Source: an uncultured Alphaproteobacteria bacterium (GTDB lineage: Bacteria; Pseudomonadota; Alphaproteobacteria; HIMB59). Taken from it: a stretch of DNA of 64,000 nucleotides. Of this stretch, positions 19,587-37,537 are shown piece by piece. The stretch is from the NCBI GenBank assembly GCA_902524245.1, contig CABZCN010000001.1, forward strand, positions 186,001 through 250,000. The letters are read 5' to 3'. Within the stretch, counting starts at the first letter, position 1; every line of letters starts with the position of its first letter. The notes under the pieces were generated by a model, which ran no database searches, was not told the origin of the DNA, and was given only the letters and a program-made list of their open reading frames with translations. A program made the position numbers and the translations under genes.

Positions 19587-20540
19587 TTAGTCGTAATAAA
19601 ACATTGGGGCCTTTTTAAATTCTTCCCAAGCATGCGGGTCGTGCCCTGTGACTACTGTAGCATTTTTGTCTTTTGCAATTTTTTTGAGTTTTTTTACAGA
19701 GTCAACAACGTCAACAGCAGAGCAAACAAGACCTGGTAGTGTTAAATTGTTCCAATGATCCATTGTGTAAGCTGCATCTATAGTAAGCAATACATAACCT
19801 GAATTTGGTAAATTAACTAAAAAAGACTGATGGCCCGGTGCATGCCCCGGAGTAAAAATTACAATTATTGATCCGTCGCCATATAAGTCATAAAAATCAT
19901 CATTTTTATCTCTTAAAAATTTCCAATTAATTCCAGGTTTATCAAAGTCTTTTCTAATATATGCAGGCTTTGAAAACCAATCAGGATTAAAAGCATAATC
20001 ATATTCCTTTTGTTGAACTAGGTGTGTTGCATTAGGAAACCTTCCAACACCACCTGAGTGATCGAGGTGAAGATGAGAATGTAAGACATATCTTATACCT
20101 GCTGGATTAACCCCAATAGAGTTAAGTTGATCAATACAATTTTCAGTTTTTCCCATAATTGGATCATAAGCCGCAACAACAGAACCCCAATGAGCATGTT
20201 TATCTTCACTGACCTCTTTTGCATTGCCTCCGTCAATGACCACATCCCCTTTTGGGTGTCTTATCAAAAACCATGGAACAGGTATCTCAAAGTCCTCATT
20301 AGATTGATTCATTTTAATATATTTCATTTTCGTTTTTAGAGTTCCGGTCTGGAACATGTAGAGCCTCATGTCAGTAGAAACTTGTGAGTTCGTTAAGTGA
20401 CTATATTCTTTTTTTGACTCTTCGATTGCTTCTTTTATGGAATATTCTTTTACTTTTTGATCTGTTTGTTTATTTGTAATAATTTTGTCAAATTGATCTA
20501 AATCAGATTTTTTGTAACTAACGCTTAATTTTTTTTCCAT
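19587..20540 (-). CDS. MBL-fold hydrolase, N-acyl-homoserine-lactonase-like
   Basis: A 317-aa metallo-beta-lactamase-fold protein. HSHLHLDHSGG (residues 154-164) is the zinc motif HxHxDH. VIFTPGHAPGHQSF gives the third His, TIDAAYTMD the bridging Asp, and VTGHDPHAWE the last His. The pattern resembles AttM/AiiA-type lactonases. The first about 55 residues are an extra Lys-rich helix. It abuts the cupin gene upstream and ends before xylA. A lactone-opening role in sugar catabolism is as likely as quorum quenching. Confidence 0.85.
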   Translation of the reverse strand: MEKKLSVSYKKSDLDQFDKIITNKQTDQKVKEYSIKEAIEESKKEYSHLTNSQVSTDMRLYMFQTGTLKTKMKYIKMNQSNEDFEIPVPWFLIRHPKGDVVIDGGNAKEVSEDKHAHWGSVVAAYDPIMGKTENCIDQLNSIGVNPAGIRYVLHSHLHLDHSGGVGRFPNATHLVQQKEYDYAFNPDWFSKPAYIRKDFDKPGINWKFLRDKNDDFYDLYGDGSIIVIFTPGHAPGHQSFLVNLPNSGYVLLTIDAAYTMDHWNNLTLPGLVCSAVDVVDSVKKLKKIAKDKNATVVTGHDPHAWEEFKKAPMFYYD

Positions 20541-21183: not shown

Positions 21184-23538
21184 TTAAGGTAAAGGCCCGT
21201 CCTTTAAGAAACCTTTAAGCGTATTTTCCATTATTCTAGAGACATTATTATTGTAATTATTATGTGAAAGACTACCGCACCAAGCCAAAGACCCTGGTGC
21301 AAACATTGCTCCATTGTTAGGTGTTTTATAGTAAATCATATCAGCTCTGACCATTGGATTTTCATGACCACCACCATAGTAACCTCGAACAGCAAAGTGT
21401 ATTTCCTCGTTAACTTGCAACATCATATTAGAGTGATCCTGCGAGCGAGCCAAATAATAAGCATTATGTGGGGTTCCAAATTCTAAGTCGTATCTGTCTA
21501 ACTCTAAACCGGCAGCTCCTCCACCAACTAAACCAAAATCACCAATAACCTCATCTGCTCCAATCCCTTCAAAGATCCATGAACATTCAGGTTTAAAACT
21601 ATCTTCTTCTCTTTTGTAGTATGAAGAAACGTCAAATCCATATGATGTAAAAGTTAAACCACAAACTTTAGAAGGTATTCTTCCTCGAGCTCTCCACATA
21701 CCTCCATATTTACCATCAAAAGCATTATTGTATTCACCTGGATTAGATGTCCATGCTCTAGTTCCGGCCTCACCTTTTCGTACTTCAGTAATATTGGAGT
21801 TGTCTGGATGATATTCACTAATCCAGTAAAATCCATCCGAACCTAAATAAAAACATCTACCACCTTGCATTTGATAGGACTCTAAGGCATCCATATATTT
21901 CTCAGATGAATACTCAGGGTGACTTCCAGTCATCACAACTTTATAACGATTTAATAAATTTATACCTTCATGTTCCAAATCTTCATCTGTAAGAACATCA
22001 AACTCAAAGCCCTTTTCCTCAAGCCAGTCTGTTAAATGTAAGTCAGCATTTAGTTGCCATAATGATGGAGAAAGCCAGTGTCTGTATTTAGGTCTCATAT
22101 TAAGGATTGGTCTAAGTCTTGATGAAATAGATACACCATGTCCATCAGAGTGAAGTGAGTAAGTTGATAAACCGTATTCTCTGTGTTCATTTAAATATAA
22201 ATCTGCAGGTTCTAGCACAGGAACTTTACCTGCGAGTAATTGAGCTACGACAGAATTAGTTCCAAGATTATCATTGGAGTAAGCCATATAACTGTTTGTG
22301 GGTAAGAGAAATAAAATTTTAGCTGTGGCTGTCCCTTTTGGAGGTTTTACACAAAAAGGAATATAATCTTCATTTTCTGACTCTTCTCTTCCATCAACTC
22401 TAAGTCGAGCAGCATACACACCACTTTTCAGACCCTCTGGGATTTTTAATTTAAAATCAACATCCCATCTTGCATCATCAATATCATCATCATGGAAATG
22501 GATAGCACCGTACTCTTCAGGTTTGTGATGGAAAACCATTTCATCCGCTGTCCAGTTATGTCCTGTCATACCTCTGTTTGGCATGTTAATAATAAATCCG
22601 TGGTGATTATTTGGAGAAGTATCAACAATCTTTGTTGAAGCAATGTTTTTGCCAATATTTGCATGAAAGTCCCAAGCGCCTACGACTGTTGACCTCACAG
22701 TGGTATTACACTCATCATAGCTTGATGCAAGTGTTTCGATCTCAGCCTTAGATAAAGCAATATTAGATAATCTAGGTCTATCTATCTTGCCATTAAAAGT
22801 CTTGGTTTGCTCAGGTAATTCAATGGGATGAGGTACCTCTTTAAAATGACCTCCGGAAATGTGCCTACCAGATCTATTATTTAATGTAGTAGCTGCAATT
22901 AACAATGGAGCATCATTAGCGGCAGGTAAAACTGAACTAGTGGTCTCAATAATAGCTGAGGTTTCTTCAATTGGATTCAAAATAGCCATACCTAAACCAC
23001 CATTTGTGGATGTAACCCTGGGTTCTTGGTGAAGGGTAAGCCTTCTTGATTGTGCATCAAAAGTTGCAATTACCAGATACCAGACTTTTCTTAAAAGTTT
23101 TTTTTCTGAGGAGACAGTTACAACCTGAGATCCATCTCCTATTTCTACAGATAAACATCCCTCATCATTAATAAAGAGACCATAGCCTTTTTTTTCTTCT
23201 TCATTAAATTTAGTGAAAATTCCTTGTCTACCTTTATCTGGCGTTGTAGGAAAAATATAAGCTTGCATAGTAAAGCTCTCTAAATTTAAATTATCATGCT
23301 GAGGCATGATGATGTACGATCCACCATGTATTCTCTGGTTTTTCCCTTGATAAGTTCCATTACAACTGGCATCTATTTCAGCTTCTTTATACCCAGGGCC
23401 TTCAGGATTTGTATCACCGTGTATAAGACGGACTAATTGAACTTCATAACTATCATTGTATTCAGCATTAATATAAAATTTAACCTCTTCACCTGGATGA
23501 GCTGAGTACTTATCACTATAACCTGTTATTTTTAACAT
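21184..23538 (-). CDS. N,N-dimethylformamidase-type amidohydrolase, large subunit
   Basis: A 784-aa protein, close to the 762 aa of the Paracoccus DMFase large subunit. An N-terminal beta part is followed by a LamG-like domain (about residues 85-260, ESFTMQAYIFPTTPDKGRQG) and the C-terminal catalytic domain (about 400-784). DMFase uses a mononuclear iron held by two Tyr and one Glu. From remembered numbering (399, 440, 521), the spacing matches Tyr420 in NSYMAYSND, Tyr460 in LSTYSLHSDG and Glu542 in SHPEYSSE. Known reaction: dimethylformamide to dimethylamine plus formate; the natural substrate here may be another amide. It overlaps the small-subunit gene by one base. Confidence 0.85.
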   Translation of the reverse strand: MLKITGYSDKYSAHPGEEVKFYINAEYNDSYEVQLVRLIHGDTNPEGPGYKEAEIDASCNGTYQGKNQRIHGGSYIIMPQHDNLNLESFTMQAYIFPTTPDKGRQGIFTKFNEEEKKGYGLFINDEGCLSVEIGDGSQVVTVSSEKKLLRKVWYLVIATFDAQSRRLTLHQEPRVTSTNGGLGMAILNPIEETSAIIETTSSVLPAANDAPLLIAATTLNNRSGRHISGGHFKEVPHPIELPEQTKTFNGKIDRPRLSNIALSKAEIETLASSYDECNTTVRSTVVGAWDFHANIGKNIASTKIVDTSPNNHHGFIINMPNRGMTGHNWTADEMVFHHKPEEYGAIHFHDDDIDDARWDVDFKLKIPEGLKSGVYAARLRVDGREESENEDYIPFCVKPPKGTATAKILFLLPTNSYMAYSNDNLGTNSVVAQLLAGKVPVLEPADLYLNEHREYGLSTYSLHSDGHGVSISSRLRPILNMRPKYRHWLSPSLWQLNADLHLTDWLEEKGFEFDVLTDEDLEHEGINLLNRYKVVMTGSHPEYSSEKYMDALESYQMQGGRCFYLGSDGFYWISEYHPDNSNITEVRKGEAGTRAWTSNPGEYNNAFDGKYGGMWRARGRIPSKVCGLTFTSYGFDVSSYYKREEDSFKPECSWIFEGIGADEVIGDFGLVGGGAAGLELDRYDLEFGTPHNAYYLARSQDHSNMMLQVNEEIHFAVRGYYGGGHENPMVRADMIYYKTPNNGAMFAPGSLAWCGSLSHNNYNNNVSRIMENTLKGFLKDGPLP

Positions 23539-23966
23539 TACTCTTCCTCACTATACTCCTCAAGAAGTCTGTTAATTCTTTTTAAAAATATTGCATGTTC
23601 ACATGCCTCTTCAGATGAATAAGAGTCTTCAGTTATTTCAACTGGCTCACCTCTAACTCCTGTTGTTATTCCAACTCTATAATCTTCATGTCTTCTTAAA
23701 CAAACAGTTACAAAACCATTTTCTTTACTTCCTCTTCTTAACTTATCTAATAATGTTTGAAGGTCTTGGCTGTGCTGAATGACGCCATGGTCTCGAGTAG
23801 CAGCCCTTCCAACTGGGGTTGCTCTGTGTTCTTCAATTAAAGATTTTAATTTTTGAGGATCTCTCAACATTTTTAAAATGTATTTTTTAGTAATAAAATC
23901 ATCCGTGTGTTTATGTCCTTTATTTAACTGAACGTTAGAGGGATGCTTGTAGCTGTAATCAGACAT
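23538..23966 (-). CDS. N,N-dimethylformamidase-type amidohydrolase, small subunit
   Basis: A 142-aa helical, charged protein upstream of and overlapping the large-subunit gene (ATG/TAA overlap of one base). DMFase small subunits are about 130 aa and pair one-to-one with the large subunit. Visible segments are ATPVGRAATRDHGVIQHSQDLQ, RRHEDYRVGITTGVRGEPVE and an acidic C-terminal helix. The assignment rests on operon position, size and overall likeness; no catalytic residues are expected here. The 105-base gap upstream probably holds a promoter. Confidence 0.8.
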   Translation of the reverse strand: MSDYSYKHPSNVQLNKGHKHTDDFITKKYILKMLRDPQKLKSLIEEHRATPVGRAATRDHGVIQHSQDLQTLLDKLRRGSKENGFVTVCLRRHEDYRVGITTGVRGEPVEITEDSYSSEEACEHAIFLKRINRLLEEYSEEE

Positions 23967-24071: not shown

Positions 24072-26126
24072 TCATAATGCATAAACGGAAAGTATTACAG
24101 TTGCCACAGCCATACCTATTAATATAAGTGGCCAACCATACCCTCCTCCCATTCTATCAATATAGTTTCCTTGCTCCTCAACATCGTCAGGTGCCAAATG
24201 TTCATCACCATTTAGTATGGGTTTTTTTGGCAAAGTCGATAAGTCCATCTTATTGGCTAAAAACCAAATTAGAAATATACCCGCTACCCACCAAATTATT
24301 TGGTAAGCCCATAGTGAAGGGACTCCCATCACCCAATTATCATAACTTTGATCCGCACTACCAAATATTAAGTTTCCGAAAATTAAACCCGGGCCGATAG
24401 AGAAGAATGCCCAAATTAAAAAGAAGACATAAGCAAGAGATTTTATTTTTTTTCTTGATGGGTGAATACCCATATGTTCATTTAAAAAATTATGAAATGA
24501 CGCTCGATGTTCTTTATCTGTATCATTACTTGCAAATATAGAGGATAAAAAACAAACAATCACATTAAAGAATAAACCCCATAACCCAGAGTAGATTGTT
24601 AGTGGCCATCGCCCCCAAGGAAGAGAATTTCCTGTTAGCTTATGACCAAAAGTTTCAGCTAAAGTTACAAAACCTAATCCGGTGATGAGTCCAAGAATTG
24701 CCCCACCTCTTGTGATCCATTTAAACCAAAGCATTCCAAGTAAAACAGGAAACAATTGGAAACCAAAAGCGATTGCTAATCCACCAAGTAGTATTAGAGA
24801 AGTTTCAAAAAAAGTTGCAAGATACAGTGCCGCTAAGCTTAATAACAACATCGCTAACCTAGCAACTAATAACTCCCTTTTCCATGTAGGGTTACTATCG
24901 ATATATGGTCTATAGAGATCTCTTGCCACCATGCTGCCTGAGGTCATTAAAAAAGCAGATAATGTAGATTGAAGAGCAGCAATTATGGATATTGCTAAAA
25001 ATCCAACAATGATTGGTGAGAGATTACTGAAACTTTCAACAAACACATAAATTAAAGATGATATATTTTGTAGACTTAGCTCAGGGAATATTTGGTTAAT
25101 GGCAAAACCATTTGAATTAACAATACTATTAGCTCCAAGAAGATGTGCTCCTACACCTAATAAAGGGGCGAATATAAATAAAAATATTCCAACAACAGCA
25201 CCTGAACCCCAAACTTGATAAAAATAAAATGACCTCGGTGATTTTACTGAATAGCTCCACATCGAAAATGTAGGAGAAAGCACAATACCCATATAAGAGA
25301 GAGTAAAGGATAAAATCATAACTGCTGTCCAAGGTCCTCCTAATGGGTTGTTTTTTCCAATACCTGCAACCCACTGAATTACACCAGGAACGTTGAAATA
25401 TCCTGAAATATCACCGCCTCCGTAACCTCCAGTAGTTCCCCAAGCTCCGAAAGATATAAAGCTATTCGCCATAGATAGGTCTTCAAAAAAACTTAAACCT
25501 CCTAAGTAATTAAATACACCAACACCAAGTGCTAAGAAAAAAACAAAAAATAACCATGATTGAACAACGCTTACACTCACCATGGGTTTAAATCCACCAG
25601 ATACAATATAAAATAAGACAACAGCAGTTAGTGCCCACATTGCAGAGTCTCTAGTTATTTCACCTCCGCTAATAAACTCTACAACATTACCTGTTGATCC
25701 AATAATTATACCAAGAAATGGAACAGCAAAAAATAATCCGATTATTAGTACTACAATTCTAAGAGTATTACTTTGATAATATTTATAATACATCTCTCCT
25801 GGAGTGATAAAATTAAATTTTCTACTTAGCATCCACTGCCTTTTAAAAAATAGTATACTTCCGAGAGGAATTGTTATTACAATTGCAGCAGTAGCTAGAA
25901 AAGAGTATCCATCTGCATAAATTAATGATGGAAAAGAAATGATAGTTATGCCTGCAAATGTAGTTACTGTTGCAGAGAAAAAGAATACCCAAGGAGATAC
26001 ACTTCTATCTGCTAAATAGTAAGCCTCAGGGGTTTTATTTTTTCTGAGAGTTCTAGCTCCCCAAAAAAGACAAAAGCTTATATATAGGACAAGAAAGAAA
26101 AAAAACCAATAAAGATTAGCGACCAT
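24072..26126 (-). CDS. Large sodium:solute symporter (SSS family)
   Basis: A 684-aa membrane protein with about 14 predicted helices, longer than the usual 500-550 aa of the SSS family. The N-terminus has the family pattern EAYYLADRSVSPWVFFFSATVTTFAGITI, and the core has SALQSTLSAFLMTSGSMVARD like the Na+-site helix of SSS proteins. A cytoplasmic insertion (about residues 545-580) and an acidic C-terminal segment (LNGDEHLAPDDVEEQGN) before a final helix are extra. It likely imports an organic solute with Na+. It lies 14 bases after an alpha/beta hydrolase gene and upstream of DMFase, so an amide or its precursor is a candidate substrate. Confidence 0.88.
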   Translation of the reverse strand: MVANLYWFFFFLVLYISFCLFWGARTLRKNKTPEAYYLADRSVSPWVFFFSATVTTFAGITIISFPSLIYADGYSFLATAAIVITIPLGSILFFKRQWMLSRKFNFITPGEMYYKYYQSNTLRIVVLIIGLFFAVPFLGIIIGSTGNVVEFISGGEITRDSAMWALTAVVLFYIVSGGFKPMVSVSVVQSWLFFVFFLALGVGVFNYLGGLSFFEDLSMANSFISFGAWGTTGGYGGGDISGYFNVPGVIQWVAGIGKNNPLGGPWTAVMILSFTLSYMGIVLSPTFSMWSYSVKSPRSFYFYQVWGSGAVVGIFLFIFAPLLGVGAHLLGANSIVNSNGFAINQIFPELSLQNISSLIYVFVESFSNLSPIIVGFLAISIIAALQSTLSAFLMTSGSMVARDLYRPYIDSNPTWKRELLVARLAMLLLSLAALYLATFFETSLILLGGLAIAFGFQLFPVLLGMLWFKWITRGGAILGLITGLGFVTLAETFGHKLTGNSLPWGRWPLTIYSGLWGLFFNVIVCFLSSIFASNDTDKEHRASFHNFLNEHMGIHPSRKKIKSLAYVFFLIWAFFSIGPGLIFGNLIFGSADQSYDNWVMGVPSLWAYQIIWWVAGIFLIWFLANKMDLSTLPKKPILNGDEHLAPDDVEEQGNYIDRMGGGYGWPLILIGMAVATVILSVYAL

Positions 26127-26140
26127 AACTCAAACTTGAA

Positions 26141-27004
26141 TTAAGAGTTGTAATCAGTCTTTTCCTTAATAATTCTGAGTGCCTCTAATAAATATACTCT
26201 AAAGACTTCATGGTTTTCACTCATCGGGAAATGACCAATATCTCTCATTTCAATATAAACTCCTCCTTTTATTTGTCTGGCAGTATCTTCTGTTGCTTCG
26301 GGAGGGGTTAGGTAGTCATAAGTACCAGTCAGCATGATAACAGGGCACTTGTGACCATCGATATTTTGAAGCTCATCTCTTAAATCATGATCAACTGAAT
26401 AAAAATGAAGGTCTCCTTTAAAAGCCTCTGATCCTTGAGTGTAATAATGCCAAGTTAACCATCTATCCATATCTGGAGATTGTGGGGCCATTAAATCCCA
26501 AACACCACTACCACACACTTGAGCTGCATTGGCATGAGGATGCCTCCACCAATCAATATAAAAGCCAGGGGAATAATGCGCAGCCTCTACAGGAATGACA
26601 GCTTTAAATTTATTAGGATACTTCAGAGCTAATTGAAGAGCCACGTTTCCTCCAAAAGAAGAACCCATAAATATAGGGTTTTCAAGGTCTAAGGCCTTAC
26701 AAAGTTCTACAATAAAATTACAGTAATGCTCTGCTGTTAATTTGTACTCCTCTTTCCACCATTCTGTATTATGAGGTGGATCTGATTTACCATGTCTTGG
26801 AAGGTCGTAAGCGATAACTTGATAGTTTTGAGTAATTTCTTCATCTTCCAGTAATCCTCTCCACTGATGATTGTGGCATCCAGCAGTATGCTGACATACT
26901 AATGGAGTGCCTTTTCCATTTGAAAGATAAAAGACTTTATACTGTTGACCATCTACCTCGATGGTAACGTATCTACCTATTGGGTCATGATGTTTTACTG
27001 CCAT
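26141..27004 (-). CDS. Alpha/beta hydrolase
   Basis: A 287-aa soluble hydrolase. The oxyanion segment is VCQHTAGCHNHQW, the nucleophile elbow is MGSSFGGN with Ser116, and the acid and base are in TGTYDYLTPP (Asp) and RDIGHFPMSE (His). The cap (about residues 140-205) is Trp- and His-rich (YIDWWRHPHANAAQ). A good GGAAA ribosome-binding site precedes ATG. Substrate unknown; it sits between the SCP2-like gene and the symporter and may cleave an imported ester or amide. Confidence 0.88.
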   Translation of the reverse strand: MAVKHHDPIGRYVTIEVDGQQYKVFYLSNGKGTPLVCQHTAGCHNHQWRGLLEDEEITQNYQVIAYDLPRHGKSDPPHNTEWWKEEYKLTAEHYCNFIVELCKALDLENPIFMGSSFGGNVALQLALKYPNKFKAVIPVEAAHYSPGFYIDWWRHPHANAAQVCGSGVWDLMAPQSPDMDRWLTWHYYTQGSEAFKGDLHFYSVDHDLRDELQNIDGHKCPVIMLTGTYDYLTPPEATEDTARQIKGGVYIEMRDIGHFPMSENHEVFRVYLLEALRIIKEKTDYNS

Positions 27005-27029: not shown

Positions 27030-27419
27030 TCATACTGGGACTCCTGATTGTCTTAGCAATTCAAATTGAACAGTAAAGTTTCTAAGATTTTGCATTAAGA
27101 CTAAATGATTGCCCTCGATTTTAAGGTCTTCTCTAAATGAGGCTGCATAGATACCATGAAACATAGGTTTTGGAACAGGCTTTGCAAACTCTCTCCATGT
27201 TTGCTCTGATGCCCTTAATGCAAAGTCATATGGATCTAAACCTCCAGGGTTGGTATTAATATTTTTTACCTTTCCATCATGCATCTCGATAATTACTTTC
27301 ACACTACCCATGTCGAAAAGAAATGAACAAGTATAATATTTAGCCATCGCTTTTATGGTTTCATCTTTTTCAGTAAGCTCTTTATATTTTTTTGCCCAGG
27401 ATTTTACATCTATACTCAT
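27030..27419 (-). CDS. SCP2-like small protein
   Basis: A 129-aa soluble protein. The central strands VKVIIEMHDGKVKNINTNP, the segment LRASEQTWREFAKPVPKPMFHG and the C-terminal LKIEGNHLVLMQNLRN resemble SCP2 sterol-carrier-like domains, which bind lipids or hydrophobic ligands. The pattern is suggestive, not certain. It is ten bases downstream of the flotillin-like gene and 25 bases upstream of the alpha/beta hydrolase gene. Confidence 0.6.
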   Translation of the reverse strand: MSIDVKSWAKKYKELTEKDETIKAMAKYYTCSFLFDMGSVKVIIEMHDGKVKNINTNPGGLDPYDFALRASEQTWREFAKPVPKPMFHGIYAASFREDLKIEGNHLVLMQNLRNFTVQFELLRQSGVPV

Positions 27420-27428
27420 GTTTTATAC

Positions 27429-29417
27429 CTATTTCTTTTTCCTGGGTGTCTTTGTGGCTTGTTCATCAAATCTCATATGCTTGTCCTTCTTAGGATCATC
27501 GTAGTCACCTAAAATATTCCTGATATTACTTGCCTCACCGGGCGACATACCAATTTCTTTTAAAAGACTATCTAAGAACGGCTGTTGTGCTCTATATCGA
27601 AGAGCAGAATTCACAACATTATCTGCTAAAGATCCTTTTTTGGAATATCCACCTGAGGACGCAGAGGGGTTATCAGCGTTGCCGCTTCCTTCAGCACCTC
27701 CTCCTTGACTAAATCCAGGTAATCCATTTACATCGACAACTTTAATTGAGTCAATGTTTTGCATTGGTCTAACCCATTCTCTAATAATACCCTCAATTTT
27801 TTCAGCGAGTTTTTGTCTAAGTGCACTTCTTCTACTTGCATCACTTCTAGCATTTTCTGCTTCATTAAGGGCTTTTTTGCCAGCTGCTTCAATTTCATAT
27901 CTAATTTTTGCAGCCATCGATGCTAACTTTTCTCTCTCAGCATTTTTACTAGCGTCTATTACTCCAAGAGCTTTTGTCTTCTCAGCTTGTTCAACATCTC
28001 TAATGGTGTTTACTTTTTCCTCAGCTTCTACAGCCTTAGCGCGAGCATTTTCTTCTTCCATTTTAGTTTTTAAGACTGACTTAGATTTTTCTAGAACTTC
28101 CATTTGTTTTTGCTTTTCTTCAATTTCTATTCTTTTTGCCTTTTCAATATCTAAGACTCTTGTCTCTTGCTCAGCAGCAATTTTGAACGCATCAACATTT
28201 TTCTGTTGAGCAGTTTTTGCATTTTTAATTTGCTCCTCAGCCATAATATAAGCCTCTTCAGACTCATACCTTTTTCTAGCTTCTTCTTTTGCTGTTTGAG
28301 CTTTTTCCTCAGCAAGTTTGATATCAACTGATCTTTGTTTTTCTAGACGACTGAATTCAACATCTCTTTCTAATTCAAGAATAGTTTTTTCTGTCTCAAT
28401 ATCTTTTTGTTTAATCTCGATAGAAGTTTGTTGTTTAAACTCATTTTGTTCTTTTCTTCTTTTCTCAATTTCTTGGATAAGTTTAGTTTCTTGTAAACTT
28501 TTTTCCATCTCAACAAAGTCTTTCTTGCTAATCTTTGCAATCTCAATATCTTTTTCTGAAGAGATTTCAGCCAGCTCAGACTCTTTGTCTTTCTCAGCTT
28601 TTGTTTTTACTGTCTCAGTATTTTCAATAGCTCTTTGTTGTTCGATTTCACGTTTTTGTTGATACTTTGAAAATTCTTCCTCTTTTTCAATTTCAAGAGT
28701 TTGCTTGATAGACTGGAGGTTTTTATTTCGAATACTTACCTCTGTATCTTTCTCAATATCATTTCTTTTCTTTTTACGTGACTGAGTAAATTCTGTTATT
28801 TGAGTTAAACCCTCAGCATCAAATGTATTTGAAGGGTCGAATACACCCACGGGTGCTTGGTTAAGAGATGTCAATGAAACAGTCTCTAACTCCAAACCAG
28901 TGTGCTTAATAGCTTCTTCAACATGAGCTGCAACATTTTTAATGTACTCAGATCTATTCTCTTGAATTTCATCAAGGCTCATTTTTGCGGCTACAACACC
29001 TAGTCCATCAACAAATCGACCTTGAACAAGCTCCTTTAAATGATCAGGCTCTAATGTTCTATTTCCCAATGTTTGCGCGGCTATTGAGACTGCTTCAGTT
29101 GTAGGAGCTACTCTTACATAGAATTCAGCCGTTACTTCTGCCCTCATTCTATTTTTTGTAATAAAAGATTTACTGCCGTTTCGTTGAACCTCTATACAAA
29201 GAGTTTTCATACCCACTGAGGTAATGTTATGAATAATAGGTAAAACGAAGGCACCTCCGCTGATCACAACTTGTTCACCACCCATACCAGTTCTAACAAA
29301 CGCTATTTCCTTTGAGGAACGCCTGTACAGCCAATGTAGCAAGTAAACTATAATTGCTATTGCTAACGCTATTAAGATTATTATTGCAATAATATCTGCA
29401 CCACTAGTAATGTTCAT
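27429..29417 (-). CDS. Flotillin-like SPFH membrane protein
   Basis: A 662-aa protein. One N-terminal membrane helix (about residues 8-30) is followed by an SPFH/band-7 domain (about 35-205, with AEVTAEFYVRVAPTTEAV), a very long Lys/Glu coiled coil (about 210-530) and a Gly/Ser-rich tail (GGGAEGSGNADNPSASSGG). This is the YqiK/flotillin layout; such proteins scaffold membrane microdomains. The start is firm: AGGAGGTGAT, nearly a perfect anti-16S match, precedes ATG. It directly follows the rhodopsin gene (27 bases), which makes a scaffold for that membrane protein and the nearby symporter an attractive but untested idea. Confidence 0.9.
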   Translation of the reverse strand: MNITSGADIIAIIILIALAIAIIVYLLHWLYRRSSKEIAFVRTGMGGEQVVISGGAFVLPIIHNITSVGMKTLCIEVQRNGSKSFITKNRMRAEVTAEFYVRVAPTTEAVSIAAQTLGNRTLEPDHLKELVQGRFVDGLGVVAAKMSLDEIQENRSEYIKNVAAHVEEAIKHTGLELETVSLTSLNQAPVGVFDPSNTFDAEGLTQITEFTQSRKKKRNDIEKDTEVSIRNKNLQSIKQTLEIEKEEEFSKYQQKREIEQQRAIENTETVKTKAEKDKESELAEISSEKDIEIAKISKKDFVEMEKSLQETKLIQEIEKRRKEQNEFKQQTSIEIKQKDIETEKTILELERDVEFSRLEKQRSVDIKLAEEKAQTAKEEARKRYESEEAYIMAEEQIKNAKTAQQKNVDAFKIAAEQETRVLDIEKAKRIEIEEKQKQMEVLEKSKSVLKTKMEEENARAKAVEAEEKVNTIRDVEQAEKTKALGVIDASKNAEREKLASMAAKIRYEIEAAGKKALNEAENARSDASRRSALRQKLAEKIEGIIREWVRPMQNIDSIKVVDVNGLPGFSQGGGAEGSGNADNPSASSGGYSKKGSLADNVVNSALRYRAQQPFLDSLLKEIGMSPGEASNIRNILGDYDDPKKDKHMRFDEQATKTPRKKK

Positions 29418-29444: not shown

Positions 29445-30146
29445 TTACTGTCCATTAACTCTCATGTCTTGTATTGCTGCTTTGTAAATTATTAAACCAA
29501 AAACTATTTTATTTAAAAAGTCTGCTAAATTATAAATCACATTAACACTGTTGGGATCAATACCCCCACCCAAATGCTCTATGAAATATCCCATTGGATA
29601 TATAGCCCATCCAATTGTTATAATAAGTCTGTTCGAGAAGAAAACCATTTGTACATTTTCGTTTCCGCATCTAGCATTTGCTCTTCCAGCCTCTCCAACA
29701 TATAGCTCACCAAGGATGTACAACCATCCAGCCAACCAAACAATGAAACCTAATGTCTTGCTCATATAACCCGCTGCACCTAAGAAACCTGCTACAACAA
29801 AAACTAAAGTTCCAACCAATAATCTCCAGAACATGCCTTGTTTAACTTTGACAACTGACATAAGCATTGCATAAAAAATAAGTACAAGCATTGGAAAGTT
29901 AAGAAACCAATCTATATATCTTAATAAAGTTGGGGCGGTGCCGCTGACTACCCAGAGATTTTTTACGAAGAAATAATGTATAGAGGACATCAAACATACA
30001 ACAGCTATCATTGTCATCGGTGTATGAAATCTCGAGCTTACTTTGCTGCGCTCAAAAAAGAAAAATAGGGTGGCACCAATCATGCCAACAGAAATTAACC
30101 AGAAAGACCCCCCTACAATGTCGTAAGGGAGAAGCATTTTATTCAT
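29445..30146 (-). CDS. Proteorhodopsin-family microbial rhodopsin with D-N-I motif
   Basis: A 233-aa seven-helix protein. The retinal lysine is Lys213 in NLADFLNKIVFG, with Asp209 as second counterion. Asp79 in RYIDWF is the primary acceptor and His57 matches PR His75. Position 105 (tuning) is Leu87, which predicts green absorption. Unusual: the PR Thr101 and Glu108 positions are Asn83 and Ile90, so the motif is D-N-I instead of D-T-E. The cytoplasmic proton donor is absent, which suggests a slow pump, a sensor, or other transport. No signal peptide; no retinal synthesis gene nearby. Heads a block with flotillin-like, SCP2-like, hydrolase and symporter genes. Confidence 0.93.
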   Translation of the reverse strand: MNKMLLPYDIVGGSFWLISVGMIGATLFFFFERSKVSSRFHTPMTMIAVVCLMSSIHYFFVKNLWVVSGTAPTLLRYIDWFLNFPMLVLIFYAMLMSVVKVKQGMFWRLLVGTLVFVVAGFLGAAGYMSKTLGFIVWLAGWLYILGELYVGEAGRANARCGNENVQMVFFSNRLIITIGWAIYPMGYFIEHLGGGIDPNSVNVIYNLADFLNKIVFGLIIYKAAIQDMRVNGQ

Positions 30147-30270: not shown

Positions 30271-31662
30271 TTATATTTGCTCCCTTATATGGGGTGCTCT
30301 TGAATAAAGAGCAACAAGAGGCAGAATAAGAAGACCAAATATAAATTGTTGCCCCTCAAAACTTAAACCTAGTCCAGCCAAAAATGTACTAATGACTTGA
30401 AGTGCAAGAACACCGATTACTGTAAATCCGTATCCTCCATATCCACCTAATAAGGAAGTTCCTCCTACAGCCACAGCTGCCACTGTTAAAAATAAATATT
30501 GATCACCTACACCAATGAACCCTCCACCACTCCAACCCAGTAACATTGCTCCAGTTGCTGCAGAAGTAAACCCACTAATGACATAAACTCCAACCCAATA
30601 TGCTCTCTCAGAAATTGATAATCTATCAGCAGATAACCTTTTTCCACCAACAGCATATAAGTTTCTTCCCCACTTAGTGTGTCTTAGTCCAACAATTAAC
30701 AAAATTGAAATCAATATCCAAATTAAGATAACTGGAGGTATTGGAAGACCAAAAAATTTTCCATTTAATGACGCTAAGTTCTTTAACCAGTCTGGAACTA
30801 CACCAAACACAGTTCCACCTGTAACTGTAGGTAGTGACACCAATATCTGTACTCCGCCTACTACCATAAACCCAACTCCAAGCGTGACTATTAATGATTG
30901 TCCTTGGAGATTAAAACTTATCAAACCATTGAAAAGCCCGACAATCGTACCAAAAGCAAGAATAACTATAAACGCAAGCCAAGGAGGGACTCCAAGTGAA
31001 ATAAGTGACATTAATCCTAAATTAGTTGCGCCAATTAAAAATGGTATTGATAAATCTAGGCCGCCTAACATCACAACTAATGTTTGTCCAATAGTTGCAA
31101 GCCCTAAGAAAGAGGCAAAAACCAACATAGATTTAATATTCTGCAATGATAAGAAGCCATCAATAGAAACTGATCCAATTATAAAAAGACCAACTAACAC
31201 GGCGACTCCTATTATCACGCTCTTATTAATATTTAAAAATTTGTATGCAAGAAATGCTAAGATTAAGAAACCTAATAGTATGATTGCTGATACGACTGTT
31301 CTACCTGAGAAGAACCCGGGTACCAAAAAACACAGTAGTATAAAAAGACCTAAAAGAAGTAAAAATCCCGTAACAGCTATCCAGTTCTTTGCAATAAGGT
31401 CCCAAAAAAGGCTTCTTTTACTTGTGGTTTCAGTAGTTTCAGGAGGTTGAGATCCATCCTCCTTTACTAAAGATCGATAAGACCATCTAACTAAGAAAAA
31501 ATGCCATCCCCAAAGAATAATGGCAACAACAGCTACAGAGTAAAATGCAACCTGTATCCAATCAGTTCTATCTACGTAACCAAGAACTGCGGTACCTATC
31601 CCAGCAGCAACAGCAAAAAGAATTCCAAGTCCTTTTAAAAAATTATGAGTTCTTTTCTCCAT
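30271..31662 (-). CDS. RbsC-type ABC importer permease with N-terminal extension
   Basis: A 463-aa inner-membrane permease. The C-terminal about 300 residues are the BPD_transp_2 core (LVVMLGGLDLSIPFLIGATN, GTIVGLFNGLISFNLQGQSLIVTLG, YAVGGKRLSADRLSI). The N-terminal about 160 residues add four extra hydrophobic helices and a polar loop (KEDGSQPPETTETTSKR). Usual family members have about 320-350 aa. It pairs with the 757-aa permease upstream and with the divergent binding protein and double ATPase at 36.4-39.3 kb. Confidence 0.88.
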   Translation of the reverse strand: MEKRTHNFLKGLGILFAVAAGIGTAVLGYVDRTDWIQVAFYSVAVVAIILWGWHFFLVRWSYRSLVKEDGSQPPETTETTSKRSLFWDLIAKNWIAVTGFLLLLGLFILLCFLVPGFFSGRTVVSAIILLGFLILAFLAYKFLNINKSVIIGVAVLVGLFIIGSVSIDGFLSLQNIKSMLVFASFLGLATIGQTLVVMLGGLDLSIPFLIGATNLGLMSLISLGVPPWLAFIVILAFGTIVGLFNGLISFNLQGQSLIVTLGVGFMVVGGVQILVSLPTVTGGTVFGVVPDWLKNLASLNGKFFGLPIPPVILIWILISILLIVGLRHTKWGRNLYAVGGKRLSADRLSISERAYWVGVYVISGFTSAATGAMLLGWSGGGFIGVGDQYLFLTVAAVAVGGTSLLGGYGGYGFTVIGVLALQVISTFLAGLGLSFEGQQFIFGLLILPLVALYSRAPHIREQI

Positions 31663-31665
31663 TTA

Positions 31666-33939
31666 CTAAACTTTTCTATCTTCTGATAGACCTCCCCATT
31701 TTTCAAGTCCTTCTTGAGATTTTAATTTTATTTTATAAACACCAAACGCTTGCCATATCAGAGGCGAAATAGCTATTCCAATTGCAGTAATTAAAATCAT
31801 TTTCCAATAAGGATAACCAATTGCGAAGAACATCGCTGACCATGTTAATGCAGCTATACTTAAAATAGCAATGTAAGGTCTGAATCTAGCAAATGATATT
31901 TTTGCTCCCATTGTTAAATATGTAAAAAATTGAAATACAAATATTGCAAATATAATTAGAGCTGCTTCTTTAAGCCAAGTAATATCACTTGTGATAAGTT
32001 CTCCTCGTATAGGTCTTGTATAGTTAATTGATGATGTATCGCCAACAATTAATTCTGTAATAATTGGAGAGTAAAACTTACTTCCATCATCAGTAATAAT
32101 TGTTCCAGAAGGTGAAGCTAAAAAGTAAACAGCGAGTATTGCTAATACACCAAGGAAAATAATGAAAACATTATTCAAATTGATATTCGAGAAAAGAGTT
32201 GGTGCCGTGAGTAAAAAAAGTAAAAATAAAATTAGTATTACAGCGTATCCATCTATTCCAAAGAAACTCTGTCTATTTGACTCAATTCCGTAATAAGATA
32301 TTGCAGCAAATACAATAAATGAAATTGCTATTGCAAATAATACCAATGTTTGTGTTTTGATTTCTTTTCTAAATCTTGGCATAGCAATTATTACTATCGC
32401 AGATGTAAAGAAAACTATTCCTCCTAAAGTTGCTACAGCGTAAGCGAGGCCAACCAAAGCACTCGAGGAAGATGAAAAATCAGGTAATCCTGCACCAACT
32501 CTTAGATATTCAGATGTAAAATACTGAGGAGCATAATTTAAAATATATTGTAAGTTTGTGCCCAAATCAGCGTTAACGAAATAAGCCTCTCTCGTGCCAC
32601 TCCATACACAACCGAAGAAAATAACAATTGCTGCAATAATAAAAGACACTGTTGGCCCGTCTCTATGTTTTACAAGTAAATAAACAAGATAAATCAGGGA
32701 TGCTATTCCAATAGCAATAAACATCCACACTGTAGAATTTCCACCCTCAGCACATGCTTTACCTGTGATTAGACAATCACTTCCAGATTCAAGAGCTTTT
32801 TCAAAAATCTCAGCATCTTTAGATTTACCTCCAAAACCTCCCACAGTCCCTCTAGTGACTTGATCAAATTTCATATGAATTTGAACAGCAGCAGCACTTA
32901 ATGTTCCAATAATAAAAAATACAAAAACTGATAAATTTTTAAATGCTTTTTGAATATAGGGAAGTGCAATAAGTATTAAAAGAGAAGCCACCAATACCGC
33001 ACCGTATGATAAGTCTGTAACGAAACTTTGAAATCTTTCAAACCTGAAAGTTGATAGAATAAAATTTATCAAATAAATGTTAACTGAACCTAGAATAGCT
33101 CCAAACGCACCACCTCTTCCACCAATTAAACTTGACCCGCCTAATACAAGTGCTGTGACTGCCATCAATGTATAAGTAGTACCTTGAGTTGGGTCTCCGG
33201 AACCAATTAAACCTGTAAATGCAATAGCTGCGAGTGCAGCGTATACTCCGCCAATAATATGAGCGCCAATTCTTACAACGTAAATTCTCACTCCACTTGT
33301 GTAAGCAGACTTTTCATCTGAACCCATTAATTTTAAATGTTGCCAGTAAGCAGTATGAGTTAGTGCGTACCAAATAAGTGTCGAGAAAATTAAAAGTATT
33401 AGTGTGGGTTGTACTACCTCTGTTCCAGCACTCCATGATAACATCCAATCAGGTGCTCTTCCTCCTGGTCTTGGTAAAATAACTAAATTTATACCAGAAA
33501 AAGCAAGAAACATACTTAAGGCAACTATTATTGGTTGAACTCTTATAAAAATTACGATTAAGGCATAAAGAAATTGGTAAATTACTCCTATTGCAAGAGC
33601 ACATATGAAATATGCAACTGGCGATTGAATATAGCCTGCAGCATAAAGTTGTATTGTCGTTACATTTATAAACCCAATAAGCGGTCCTATTGATAAATCG
33701 ACTGTCACTCTGCCGGCTAAAGCCAACGCGGTAAGAGCATAAGTAGCAAGAATAAGGGGTGTTGAAACCATAATTGCAGTTCCAATACCCGAGCCTGAAA
33801 TTATTTGTGGTCCTCTAATCATTGCAAAAATCATTAGGGCAAAAAATATAAATATTGGAACGATTAAGTATTTTGTTGACTGAGGATCAGAACCCGGAAT
33901 TTGAGAGGGTTTTATTGCTGCTACAAGTTGATTAACCAT
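31666..33939 (-). CDS. Oversized RbsC-type ABC importer permease (757 aa)
   Basis: Residues 1-335 form a normal BPD_transp_2 permease (LAGRVTVDLSIGPLIGFINV, RVQPIIVALSMFLAFSGINL, LVLGGSSLIGGRGGAFGAILG). Then come about 420 more residues with some nine additional hydrophobic segments, unlike any standard permease of this class. A loop at about 355-402 has Cys389 and Cys396 (SGSDCLITGKACAEGG), and another polar loop lies at about 640-665. The extension might be a second membrane domain or ligand gate. No frameshift or internal start separates the parts. It lies three bases before the 463-aa permease. Confidence 0.85.
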   Translation of the reverse strand: MVNQLVAAIKPSQIPGSDPQSTKYLIVPIFIFFALMIFAMIRGPQIISGSGIGTAIMVSTPLILATYALTALALAGRVTVDLSIGPLIGFINVTTIQLYAAGYIQSPVAYFICALAIGVIYQFLYALIVIFIRVQPIIVALSMFLAFSGINLVILPRPGGRAPDWMLSWSAGTEVVQPTLILLIFSTLIWYALTHTAYWQHLKLMGSDEKSAYTSGVRIYVVRIGAHIIGGVYAALAAIAFTGLIGSGDPTQGTTYTLMAVTALVLGGSSLIGGRGGAFGAILGSVNIYLINFILSTFRFERFQSFVTDLSYGAVLVASLLILIALPYIQKAFKNLSVFVFFIIGTLSAAAVQIHMKFDQVTRGTVGGFGGKSKDAEIFEKALESGSDCLITGKACAEGGNSTVWMFIAIGIASLIYLVYLLVKHRDGPTVSFIIAAIVIFFGCVWSGTREAYFVNADLGTNLQYILNYAPQYFTSEYLRVGAGLPDFSSSSSALVGLAYAVATLGGIVFFTSAIVIIAMPRFRKEIKTQTLVLFAIAISFIVFAAISYYGIESNRQSFFGIDGYAVILILFLLFLLTAPTLFSNINLNNVFIIFLGVLAILAVYFLASPSGTIITDDGSKFYSPIITELIVGDTSSINYTRPIRGELITSDITWLKEAALIIFAIFVFQFFTYLTMGAKISFARFRPYIAILSIAALTWSAMFFAIGYPYWKMILITAIGIAISPLIWQAFGVYKIKLKSQEGLEKWGGLSEDRKV

Positions 33940-33944
33940 TATAA

Positions 33945-35447
33945 TTAGTCAAAATAGACGACTTTGATACCCCCTCTGTCAGACTGCGATCTTCCATGAC
34001 CCACTTTAAGCTTGTCTGTTTCAACAATTTTAATTCTCTTTGAGTCCAAATCAATATTTTTAGCAAAACCATTTTTAAAAGATGTCTTACTAATAAGAGT
34101 GTTTAAATTGTTTTCGATATATTTAGTATTGTGTTTACCTTCTATGAAGTTTTTGTCTTTGAGAAGACAAATTAAAAAGGGAATGTTTGTCTTAATGCCC
34201 TCAATCTGGGTGCCTTCTAAAAACTTTATTAATTTGGATATAGCATCATCTCGAATTAAGTCGTGAGATATAATTTTTCCTATCATCGGATCATAATAGA
34301 AACTTACTTCATCTCTTTCATCGTATCCCCAATCTAATCTAATGCCATTTGGTATTTTAGGAAATTTTAATTTGGTTATTTTCCCTGGAGATGGTAAGAA
34401 ATTTTGAGAAGGGTCCTCTGCGTAGACTCTGCATTCAATTGAATGTCCATAAGTTTTAATTTTATTTTGATTTAAAAATTTATTTTTTCTATTAAAAGCA
34501 AAATTTATTTGCATGGAAATTAAATCATTATTTGTCACTAACTCTGTAACAGGATGTTCAACTTGAATTCTTGTATTCATCTCAAGAAAATAATATTTCA
34601 TTTCTTGGACATCATATATAAACTCTACAGTACCTGCTCCTTCGTATTTTACATCAGAAGATAATTTTACAGCGGCTTGAGCCATATTGTTAATTAATTC
34701 CCTATCTACTTCTGGTGCCGGAGACTCCTCAATTATCTTTTGATATCTTCTTTGCATAGAGCAATCTCTTTCGAACAGATGGACAGATCCTTTTGCACCA
34801 AATCCAAAAACTTGTATTTCAATATGTCGGGCGTTGGTGATAAATTTCTCAATAAAAATATCTCCATTACCAAAAGATTTTGCAGCAAGATTACTAGTTT
34901 TTTCAATTGCACTAGCTAAGTCTTTAAAATTTTGGACGACGCTCATGCCTATCCCCCCACCACCAGCACTTGATTTTACAAGTAAAGGGTAACCTATTGC
35001 TTCACATTTTGTCTTAAGTTGTTCATCACTTAATTTATGAACATTATTTATACCTGGACATATAGGTATATTGGAATTTAGGGCTAATTCACGAGCAATA
35101 TCCTTATTTCCCATTGATTTTATTGATTTTGGTTTAGGGCCAATCCATGTGATACCTCTGTTTATGACCTCTTGAGCAAAAGTGTCGTTTTCTGATAAAA
35201 AACCAAAACCAGGATGAATAGCATCCACATTTGATTTTGTAGCTATTTCTAAAATCTTATTGTAAGAAAGATAACTTTCCTGAGCTTTACTAGGTCCAAT
35301 ATAATAAGACTCGTCAGATAATCTTACATGCTTTGAATTCTTATCTGCATCTGAATAAACAGCTACAGATTTGTGACCTAATATTTTACAACTTTTTATA
35401 ATTCTATTTGCTATTTCACCGCGATTAGCAATTAAAATTTTTTTCAT
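33945..35447 (-). CDS. Biotin carboxylase subunit (ATP-grasp)
   Basis: A 500-aa ATP-grasp enzyme that carboxylates biotin with bicarbonate and ATP. The N-terminus is KKILIANRGEIANRIIKSC, the glycine-rich ATP loop is VKSSAGGGGIGMSVV, and the signature EMNTRIQVEHPVTE is intact, as is CRVYAEDP in the C-terminal domain. It is about 50 residues longer than AccC. Carboxyltransferase-like halves and a biotin carrier lie in the divergent operon at 39.3-41.8 kb, so this is probably part of a dedicated carboxylase rather than acetyl-CoA carboxylase. Overlaps PxpA by four bases. Confidence 0.9.
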   Translation of the reverse strand: MKKILIANRGEIANRIIKSCKILGHKSVAVYSDADKNSKHVRLSDESYYIGPSKAQESYLSYNKILEIATKSNVDAIHPGFGFLSENDTFAQEVINRGITWIGPKPKSIKSMGNKDIARELALNSNIPICPGINNVHKLSDEQLKTKCEAIGYPLLVKSSAGGGGIGMSVVQNFKDLASAIEKTSNLAAKSFGNGDIFIEKFITNARHIEIQVFGFGAKGSVHLFERDCSMQRRYQKIIEESPAPEVDRELINNMAQAAVKLSSDVKYEGAGTVEFIYDVQEMKYYFLEMNTRIQVEHPVTELVTNNDLISMQINFAFNRKNKFLNQNKIKTYGHSIECRVYAEDPSQNFLPSPGKITKLKFPKIPNGIRLDWGYDERDEVSFYYDPMIGKIISHDLIRDDAISKLIKFLEGTQIEGIKTNIPFLICLLKDKNFIEGKHNTKYIENNLNTLISKTSFKNGFAKNIDLDSKRIKIVETDKLKVGHGRSQSDRGGIKVVYFD

Positions 35448-36229
35448 TTCTTATCAACGATATAAGGCATTTTGGTATGATTGCCGTTTGAAGTTTTTTG
35501 TGGAATTTTTTTATCAGAGGAAATTTTTTCTCTCAGAGCCTTTAAGATTTCTACAGCATTAGGAGTGTCAGAGTGGACACAAATTGTTTCACATCCTACA
35601 ACTACATCGTTTCCTTGAACAGTTTTAACTTTATTTTCATTCATTGCTCTTAAACAACGCTCCACAGCTCTATCAGTTGGATAATATTTATTTCGACCCT
35701 TGGCTATAACCAAATAACCTGTTTCATCATATTCCAAGTCAGAGTAAAATTCTCCGTAAAATTTTACCCCTCTTTCTTTGTATACTTTTTCGTGAAAGGT
35801 ATTAACCATTCCAAAAATACCAACATTAAAAATCTCAGCTGCGTCAGCAATTCCATGAGCCACATCTTCCTCTTTCGCGGAGACACCATATAAAGATCCA
35901 TGAGGTTTGATATGGTTTAATGGCATTCCATACTCATCTAGAAAGGCTTTGATGGCACCAGTTTGATACATTACAAGATTTTTGATTTCATCACGTTTCA
36001 TTTTCATCGGCCTTCTTCCAAATCCTACTAAGTCAGGATAGGCAGGGTGCGATCCAACTTTCACATCATATTTTTTTGCAAGCTCTACAGTTTTCCTCAT
36101 TGTGTTTGGGTCTGAGGCGTGAAACCCACAGGCTACATTAGCAGCATCTATATAAGGCATTATTTCTTCGTCATCTGCGAAGGAGTAAATACCAAAACCC
36201 TCACCCATATCGCAATTCAAATCGACCAT
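35444..36229 (-). CDS. pxpA: LamB/YcsF family protein (5-oxoprolinase subunit A-like)
   Basis: A 261-aa protein with the LamB/YcsF signature at its N-terminus: VDLNCDMGEGFGIYSF, then IDAANVACGFHASDP and VGSHPAYPDLVGFGRRPM. In bacteria, PxpA with PxpB and PxpC opens 5-oxoproline with ATP. Here B and C homologues are present (39.3-41.6 kb) but the B homologue looks like a urea-carboxylase half, so the lactam or amide substrate is open. First gene of the leftward operon; it overlaps biotin carboxylase. Confidence 0.9.
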   Translation of the reverse strand: MVDLNCDMGEGFGIYSFADDEEIMPYIDAANVACGFHASDPNTMRKTVELAKKYDVKVGSHPAYPDLVGFGRRPMKMKRDEIKNLVMYQTGAIKAFLDEYGMPLNHIKPHGSLYGVSAKEEDVAHGIADAAEIFNVGIFGMVNTFHEKVYKERGVKFYGEFYSDLEYDETGYLVIAKGRNKYYPTDRAVERCLRAMNENKVKTVQGNDVVVGCETICVHSDTPNAVEILKALREKISSDKKIPQKTSNGNHTKMPYIVDKK

Positions 36230-36275: not shown

Positions 36276-36296
36276 TATGTGAAAATCTTTTCCACA
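36276..36296. promoter_or_regulatory. Imperfect palindrome in divergent promoter region
   Basis: ATGTGAAAATCTTTTCCACAT, an imperfect inverted repeat with one inserted base, lies in the 147-base spacer between divergent pxpA and the binding-protein gene. The place and size suit a LacI- or GntR-type operator controlling both operons. No regulator gene is adjacent. Confidence 0.45.
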
Positions 36297-36376
36297 TGTT
36301 GGAACAATTTTGCTTATATTTTTCAGAATATAGGTATTATTATAGACACTTATATATAAGTAAGGAGGATAAAACT

Positions 36377-37537
36377 ATGACATTGCTTAAAAAGTTCATA
36401 GCTATTTTAGCTGTTAGTTTTGTCGGTGTCGCAGGTAACTTAAATGCTGACATTTTAGACGAAATTCCAGCTGATATTAGAGACTTCGTTTATAATCCTG
36501 ACTTTATGGATCCTAACCAACCGCTTGGTGAAAGTGTATACAGAAATTGGAAAAGTGATAGACCACTACCTTGGACTATCGGTTATGCAAGTTCTTACGC
36601 AGGAAATCTATGGAGAAAAGGTGTGATGGAGAGATTGTACGGTGACTATTTACCAAAAATGAAAGCAGCAGGTATTCTTAATGATATCGTTGTTACACAA
36701 TCTAACCTAAAAGACGCGGTTCAAATTCAACAAATGAGACAGTTAACTGATCAAGGAGTTGACGGATTAATAGTCTGTTGCTCAAATCCTGTTGCATTAA
36801 ATCCAACAATTGAGTATGCGTACGGAAAAGGTGTTCCTACTGCATCAATGACAGGATACTTAACTTCAGAATATGCTATCAGTACATCTGTTAACTATAA
36901 ATTAACCGGATATTATATTGCACAATGGTTAGCAGAAACTATTGGTGGTGAAGGTAATGTTGTTATCATGGAAGGAATTCCTGGAACATCTGCATCTGAC
37001 TCACAGCACCAAGGTATGCTAGATGGATTTGCAGAATATCCAGATATTACCGTTGTTGCTGAAATTGCACACATGTGGACACCACAAATTGCTCAAGCTG
37101 AACTTCAAAAATGGTTATCAGCCAATACAATTGAAGTTGACGGATTTGCTGTTCAGTCTTCAGGAGAGTCCGGAGCACTTAACGCTCTAGAATCATCTGG
37201 AAGACCAATGGTGCCTATGGCTTTGGGTGGAGAAATTGGTGCATTCTGCTATTGGAGAAATAACCCAGACTTTATCGACAGAGCGGTCTATGCTTGGCCT
37301 CCAGGAGATGATGCAGAGTTTGCAATGAACGTTCTTTTAAGAACTATGTATGGTCAGGGTCTTAAAATCCAGTCTATCTTAGTTCCTCCATATGAAGAAG
37401 ATGTTGAGACTATTCAGTCTTTTGTTCCTGAAGATTGTGACAGAAACTCAAGTGAGTTTAGAACTGTTGGAATTGAAAACTGGGCAAGTGATGAATACCT
37501 AAATAATTTCTTCGATCGTGGAGAAGCATTACTTTAA
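36377..37537 (+). CDS. ABC importer periplasmic binding protein (RbsB type)
   Basis: A 386-aa protein. ATG at 36377 is chosen because AAGGAGG precedes it and a signal peptide follows (MTLLKKFIAILAVSFVGVAGNLNA). The mature part has the type I binding-protein layout: WTIGYASSYAGNLWRKGVMERL, QMRQLTDQGVDGLIVCCSNP, GNVVIMEGIPGTSASDSQHQGM and AVQSSGESGALNALE. Members bind sugars, autoinducer-2, nucleosides or purines. It is the first gene of the rightward operon, with its ATPase next and its permeases in the leftward operon. Confidence 0.9.
   Translation: MTLLKKFIAILAVSFVGVAGNLNADILDEIPADIRDFVYNPDFMDPNQPLGESVYRNWKSDRPLPWTIGYASSYAGNLWRKGVMERLYGDYLPKMKAAGILNDIVVTQSNLKDAVQIQQMRQLTDQGVDGLIVCCSNPVALNPTIEYAYGKGVPTASMTGYLTSEYAISTSVNYKLTGYYIAQWLAETIGGEGNVVIMEGIPGTSASDSQHQGMLDGFAEYPDITVVAEIAHMWTPQIAQAELQKWLSANTIEVDGFAVQSSGESGALNALESSGRPMVPMALGGEIGAFCYWRNNPDFIDRAVYAWPPGDDAEFAMNVLLRTMYGQGLKIQSILVPPYEEDVETIQSFVPEDCDRNSSEFRTVGIENWASDEYLNNFFDRGEALL

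Follow-up and report, generated by a model that had tools for sequence, protein, structure and literature searches.

Flotillin-associated rhodopsins (FArhodopsins, or FARs) were named by Haro-Moreno et al. in 2023, and the available text of that paper (PMC10308929) gives them the motifs DTT, DTL or DNI, the last being the motif of the HIMB59 members, and reports their flotillin neighbor, their DTE paralogue and the content of the surrounding gene cluster. According to the same text, the DTE paralogue is always found in HIMB59, Pelagibacter and Pseudothioglobus SAGs, retinal is predicted to clash with conserved residues, and FArhodopsins are suggested to be retinal-less. Their nearest characterised relatives, which lie in the FAR clade of that paper, are DTT-type rhodopsins that neither bind retinal nor pump in E. 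coli (PMC5864233). Work on their role has stalled because the known carriers, some of them among the most abundant bacteria of the ocean, are uncultured or streamlined.

Here, we analyze a member of this group encoded in the window, by which we mean the whole 64,000-nucleotide stretch under analysis, from genome G000 (1.37 Mb, 94.6% complete). The 233-codon open reading frame (30146..29445) matches Pfam Bac_rhodopsin at 5.4e-32 and is followed on the same strand by a flotillin gene, the neighbor that the original prediction had noted, with AGGAGG in the spacer between them. The gene, its landmark residues (bR, bacteriorhodopsin) and the flotillin are placed as follows:

29445..30146, minus strand: FArhodopsin gene, 233 aa, D79-N83-I90 motif, K213 kept
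29895..29900, minus strand: codons of Asn83 (bR T89) and Phe84 (bR T90; H84 in PsFAR)
29877..29879, minus strand: codon of Ile90, at the proton-donor site (bR D96, GPR E108)
29508..29510, minus strand: codon of Lys213, the Schiff-base lysine
27429..29417, minus strand: 662-aa flotillin (Band_7 + Flot); a 27-nt spacer separates it from the rhodopsin upstream

Alignment with more than 60 rhodopsins, including bacteriorhodopsin and proteorhodopsins, gives the window protein His57, Arg76, Asp79, Asn83, Ile90, Asp209 and Lys213. Together with the translation, it bears out each residue that the original prediction had named as a landmark (Lys213, Asp209, Asp79, His57), and likewise its pairing of Asn83 with GPR T101 (bR T89) and of Ile90 with the donor E108. 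Helix C aligns without gaps, so the donor site is truly Ile and no gap shift brings Glu or Asp into it. Rhodopsins 97-100% identical occur in about 30 further genomes of the same genus, and the triplet is kept by all unique window-clade sequences as well as by the basal HIMB59 relatives, one of which has DNV; thus, the DNI rhodopsin reflects neither error nor chance. The further claim that no described group carries this triplet fails, since DNI is the HIMB59 motif in the available text of PMC10308929, the sole paper returned by a literature search for 'DNI motif'.

In a tree with reference rhodopsins, a check the prediction had proposed, the window protein falls within a monophyletic FAR clade (support 100/99) that also holds PsFAR and the Pelagibacter, Lys-less and large-genome members. 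Its best sequence matches are PDB entries 9r21 and 9r23 (flotillin-associated rhodopsin, PsFAR; E 1e-91 to 1e-92), and a fold search with an AlphaFold model built from 71 sequences (pLDDT 90.4) ranks the same entries first, at TM 0.92; an input of 15 FARs alone gave an unusable model (pLDDT 49.5). The source genome encodes a second rhodopsin at G000:C1:447312, with a DTE motif and Gln at the tuning site, close to the gene for Blh. This paralogue starts about 25 residues before the FAR start, and FAR lacks the N-terminal segment. By clade, adjacent flotillin, DNI motif, DTE paralogue, missing N-terminus, retained Lys213 and a pocket that is reduced as judged from residue volumes, the window rhodopsin is a DNI-type FArhodopsin of the HIMB59/AEGEAN-169 clade, a group already known. 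Unlike proton-pumping proteorhodopsins, it has Ile90 instead of a carboxylate at the helix C donor site, and Trp137 at bR 141, a position that in the pumps, like bR 122, is small and leaves room for the β-ionone ring. Neither the rhodopsin nor the flotillin nor the small neighboring proteins orf129 and orf142 match an NCBIfam family, a scan of viral contigs returned no relative, and our literature search returned no paper for PsFAR and none linking FAR to butyrolactone.

Judged from its residues, the main anomaly of this protein is not the lost donor but the filled β-ionone end of the retinal pocket, at which three codons stand out:

29736..29738, minus strand: codon of Trp137 (bR S141, GPR G155), proposed plug of the β-ionone site
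29787..29789, minus strand: codon of Gly120 (bR G122), Glu in basal HIMB59 FARs and PsFAR (E120), Gln in Pelagibacter
29799..29801, minus strand: codon of Phe116 (bR M118, GPR M134), an enlarged pocket residue

At bR 118/122/141, all 62 Lys-bearing non-FAR rhodopsins sampled have Met-Gly-(Gly/Ser/Ala). The window clade has Phe-Gly-Trp, basal HIMB59 FARs Phe-Glu-Gly, PsFAR and two gammaproteobacterial genomes Met-Glu-Gly, and Pelagibacter FARs Trp-Gln-Gly; in these last, bR W182 is also replaced by Phe and bR P186 by His. The summed volume of ring-end residues is 1559 Å3 in the window clade, the largest of all, versus 1300 +/- 46 Å3 in non-FAR rhodopsins and 1318 Å3 in the genome's own DTE paralogue. 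Since the window clade is nested within HIMB59 FARs (100/99), the simplest history, as read from tree topology, would be that Glu120 was lost and Trp137 gained on one branch, exchanging one pocket plug (Glu120/Gly137) for another (Gly120/Trp137). The solved PsFAR mutant H84V/E120G alters exactly two pocket sites and removes the corresponding plug residues of PsFAR. That different clades carry different plugs suggests that blindness itself is kept by selection. Filling is confined to the ring half of the pocket, the Schiff-base half being close to intact, and marine FARs retain Lys213, Asp79, Asp209, Arg76, Trp80 and Tyr183. A further signature is Gly146 (bR 150), present in 16/16 FAR representatives examined, Lys-less ones included, versus 2% of the 62 other rhodopsins.

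Around the rhodopsin and flotillin, the window encodes a transporter and a set of enzymes:

19587..20540, minus strand: AttM family lactonase, scoring 426.9 bits against a curated cut-off of 390 and bearing an additional tail at its N-terminus
21184..23538, minus strand: N,N-dimethylformamidase (DMFase) beta-subunit-like protein
23538..23966, minus strand: orf142, small protein encoded beside the DMFase-like protein, of which it may be the small subunit
24072..26126, minus strand: SSF sodium:solute symporter
26141..27004, minus strand: alpha/beta hydrolase, a conserved enzyme of the cluster; identity to the copies of most large-genome and plasmid relatives is 76-86%
27030..27419, minus strand: orf129, conserved small protein of the cluster; identity to the copies of most large-genome and plasmid relatives is 63-81%
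30271..31662, minus strand: ABC permease, the immediate upstream neighbor of the rhodopsin in HIMB59, gammaproteobacterial and Rhizobiales clusters
31666..33939, minus strand: second ABC permease
33945..35447, minus strand: biotin carboxylase, tag-like C-terminal end IKVVYFD
35444..36229, minus strand: LamB/YcsF (PxpA, 5-oxoprolinase subunit A)
36296..37537, plus strand: ABC substrate-binding protein (SBP), sugar-type family
37553..39334, plus strand: ABC ATPase, tag-like C-terminal tail VKVVDFT...IKVKYF
39340..40602, plus strand: carboxyltransferase C/D domain protein (CT_CD, PxpB-like), N-terminal Y..SDL..F-like motif
40603..41571, plus strand: carboxyltransferase A/B domain protein (PxpC-like)
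45003..46166, plus strand: iron-containing alcohol dehydrogenase, sharing 53-55% identity with its counterpart in the clusters of Hoeflea, Martelella, Pararhizobium and G751

The HIMB59 order is SBP/ATPase (divergent) - PxpA - biotin carboxylase - permease - permease - FAR - flotillin - orf129 - hydrolase - SSF - orf142 - DMFase-like. The core permease-FAR-flotillin order recurs in gammaproteobacteria (G1302, G1161; 4.1 and 5.4 Mb) and alphaproteobacteria (G1489/G1575; 4.1-4.5 Mb), where orf129 and the hydrolase come next wherever the contig extends that far, and the G1161 and G1575 clusters also encode an AttM-like protein 31-32% identical to that of the window. A Lys-less FAR sits in the same operon in G751 (3.8 Mb, 100% complete) and in three cultured bacteria that carry it on plasmids, Hoeflea sp. 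IMCC20628, Martelella sp. AD-3 and Pararhizobium gei; in these four FARs, Arg replaces the lysine, Gly replaces Asp85, and plug site 122 is occupied by Arg; the FAR on a Shinella sp. PSBB067 plasmid has Leu for the lysine and forms a long branch. All large-genome and Lys-less plasmid FARs join the FAR clade at 100/99. The Lys-less homologues on the four plasmid loci (L229, L230, L231 and L232, from Hoeflea, Martelella, Pararhizobium and Shinella) are mostly annotated 'bacteriorhodopsin'. In the five draft genomes G1489, G1575, G751, G1302 and G1161 (92-100% complete), we found no rhodopsin besides FAR and no Blh, in a search that had its positive control in G000 only and covered Blh alone among retinal-forming enzymes; a pump partner and the carrier's own Blh-based retinal synthesis thus seem unneeded. 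The G1489/G1575 FARs have an open pocket (Val90, Ala122, Ser/Ala141, Gly145), with the donor site still Val/Ile. Open-pocket (Ala122, Gly145), donor-less FARs lie at L221:6118-6807 and L222:6147-6836, in alphaproteobacteria where neither another rhodopsin nor Blh was found.

In Pelagibacter clusters, FAR and flotillin are accompanied by neither the ABC transporter nor the terminal peptides described below. Two loci from another family of the window's own order (L104 and L105, in G052 and G055) carry a Pelagibacter-type FAR cluster, with FARs 85-88% identical to a Pelagibacter FAR versus 67-69% to that of the window, which suggests, from these identities, that the cluster may have been transferred between orders. 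One genome (G008) seemingly has both FAR types; since it is a MAG of 150 contigs with 4% contamination, we place no weight on it. A rhodopsin on a Polymorphobacter plasmid adjoins Blh, has no flotillin and is not a FAR. On a Rhodococcus plasmid, the hydrolase is preceded by a small hypothetical gene, orf129-like in position and size, with neither rhodopsin nor flotillin, so the hydrolase is not FAR-dependent.

The enzymes of the operon point to a class of substrate. Plasmid clusters combine AttM with an iron-dependent alcohol dehydrogenase, and Martelella adds a succinate-semialdehyde dehydrogenase, which makes up the set of the γ-butyrolactone pathway in Agrobacterium. The G1161 operon encodes caprolactamase CapA and CapB, both above curated cut-offs, and genes for PxpABC-like proteins and a biotin carboxylase lie in the window. 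On these gene families, the substrate would be of lactone or lactam type. The annotated AttM starts on three plasmids seem too short (L229:5992-6157, L230:6079-6247, L231:6135-6300), an upstream in-frame start giving an N-terminus, MKI(V/I)EFD, that is conserved in several genomes.

That sequence is one form of a short peptide that recurs at protein ends. The pattern [IVM]K[IV][IVKRM].F has 20 occurrences among the 165 open reading frames from eight loci, all of them lying no more than 30 residues from an end and none internal, and marks 15 protein ends versus a mean of 0.31 and a maximum of 3 in 2000 end shuffles, figures that overstate significance because the pattern was picked post hoc and several carriers are orthologous. 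The stronger point is its spread over five unrelated protein types: ABC ATPase, biotin carboxylase, CapB, AttM (at the N-terminus) and small proteins that repeat it up to five times. In the window, IKIVEFD-like motifs lie at 33948-33968 (minus strand), 39269-39289 (plus) and 39314-39331 (plus), and small, dedicated proteins that repeat the motif several times lie at L104:3256-3879, L196:1183-1515, L221:1691-2026 and L222:1889-2221. A second motif, Y..SDL..F..I/L, is found in the N-terminal tails of the window's AttM (20481-20516, minus strand) and CT_CD (39352-39387, plus strand), and in small proteins of L104 (3256-3879), L196 (1183-1515) and L197 (829-1440). The IKIVEFD-like peptide is possibly a docking tag.

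We propose, with somewhat more confidence than doubt, that FAR is the retinal-free seven-helix part of a flotillin-scaffolded platform for lactone/lactam uptake and catabolism. Bulky Phe84, Phe116 and Trp137 would fill the place of the β-ionone ring, such that FAR no longer holds retinal; the colorless protein would work with the flotillin encoded by the adjacent gene, and the two would form a membrane platform for an operon comprising the ABC transporter, AttM lactonase, 5-oxoprolinase/carboxylase-like enzymes, hydrolase and dehydrogenase. The main point that this reading leaves unexplained is that Lys213, Asp79, Asp209, Arg76, Trp80 and Tyr183 are kept, as a blind protein would not need them; in addition, the open-pocket FARs of G1489/G1575 could, on their residues, hold retinal or a larger ligand, and the Pelagibacter clusters, with neither transporter nor peptides, count against a platform. 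A more specific version is a peptide-tagged metabolon, in which tagged enzymes and the ABC ATPase would dock on flotillin and a retinal-free rhodopsin with clade-specific plugs and a structural or ligand-sensing role; we offer this only tentatively.

It is improbable that FAR binds retinal and acts as a slow proton pump or as a light sensor signaling to the flotillin scaffold, as the original prediction had considered. The intact Lys213, Asp79, Asp209, Arg76 and His57 would fit such a protein, as would a genome that makes retinal through Blh, and donor loss is typical of sensory rhodopsins. Against this, the ring end of the pocket is filled, Lys-less members occupy the same operon, and no transducer or kinase gene occurs among the annotated cluster genes, which leaves room for signaling to flotillin itself. 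The failure of DTT-type relatives to bind retinal or pump in E. coli (PMC5864233) also disfavors it. Less probable still is the 2023 hypothesis, found in the available text of PMC10308929, that FAR forms a heterocomplex with the DTE proteorhodopsin to tune or boost pumping in dim light. The constant presence of the DTE paralogue in the SAGs of that study, and again in G000, agrees with it, but in the five draft genomes FAR is the only rhodopsin found, Blh was not found, and operon and flotillin are conserved nonetheless. The Schiff-base end kept in marine FARs leaves room for a smaller ligand, and Lys213 might form a Schiff base with a small aldehyde or a short apocarotenoid of a size to suit the shortened pocket, FAR being its receptor, for example for a semialdehyde of the adjacent pathway; the nearly intact Schiff-base half, the operon's lactonase and Fe-dependent dehydrogenase and the Martelella semialdehyde dehydrogenase would suit this idea, which the Lys-less members of the same operon make just as doubtful. 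Finally, that FAR is a decaying relic of gene duplication, for which the lost donor and pocket might speak, is rejected as next to impossible, because dN/dS in comparisons of the window gene with congeneric species is 0-0.09 where dS is estimable, mostly 0.007-0.05 and no higher than in the DTE paralogue, with one amino-acid change versus L013 at dS 0.51, and the gene is intact in nearly all relatives carrying it. Such strong purifying selection implies a functional protein.

Compared with the texts on FArhodopsins covered here, in the parts available, four observations are new: the permease-FAR-flotillin order in alpha- and gammaproteobacteria of 3.8-5.4 Mb, in which our search yielded no second rhodopsin and no Blh; a Lys-less FAR within this operon in cultured bacteria, where it is plasmid-borne (Hoeflea, Martelella and Pararhizobium); the lactone/lactam enzymes that the operon encodes, AttM and, in a gammaproteobacterial relative, caprolactamase CapAB; and an IKIVEFD-like terminal peptide common to unrelated enzymes and the ABC ATPase. 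What remains of interest in this locus thus lies in these pump-less and cultured carriers, the operon, the peptides and the plug exchange. With the operon in cultured, plasmid-bearing Rhizobiales and in genomes where no other rhodopsin was found, beside a lactonase/lactamase pathway, the role of FAR becomes testable by ordinary genetics, and the common peptide offers a handle on how enzymes might gather at a bacterial flotillin domain.

Set beside the known systems, the window protein shares with the HIMB59/AEGEAN-169 FArhodopsins, in the available text of PMC10308929, the DNI motif, co-directional adjacent flotillin, DTE paralogue, missing N-terminal segment and separate clade, along with a cluster of carboxylases, PxpA, DMFase-like protein, symporter and hydrolase; no difference places it outside that group, and the split between Trp137/Gly120 and Glu120/Gly137 within HIMB59 is absent from that text, figures aside. 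Proteorhodopsin pumps (GPR, Med12 4jq6, PsPR 9r22 and the genome's own DTE paralogue) have the same fold, Lys, counter-ion Asp pair, Arg and His, whereas the window protein lacks the donor carboxylate and the N-terminal signal segment, has Asn for Thr and has its ring pocket filled. Lys-less rhodopsins (Rh-noK, freshwater FARs) likewise keep a retinal-independent rhodopsin fold in genomes, and the Lys-less FARs that we found lie in this very operon, the window protein differing in keeping the lysine. PsFAR (9r21; mutant H84V/E120G, 9r23) aligns without gaps over residues 1-229, with equal numbering, and has D-T-M, His84 and Glu120 where the window protein has D-N-I, Phe84 and Gly120, with Trp137.
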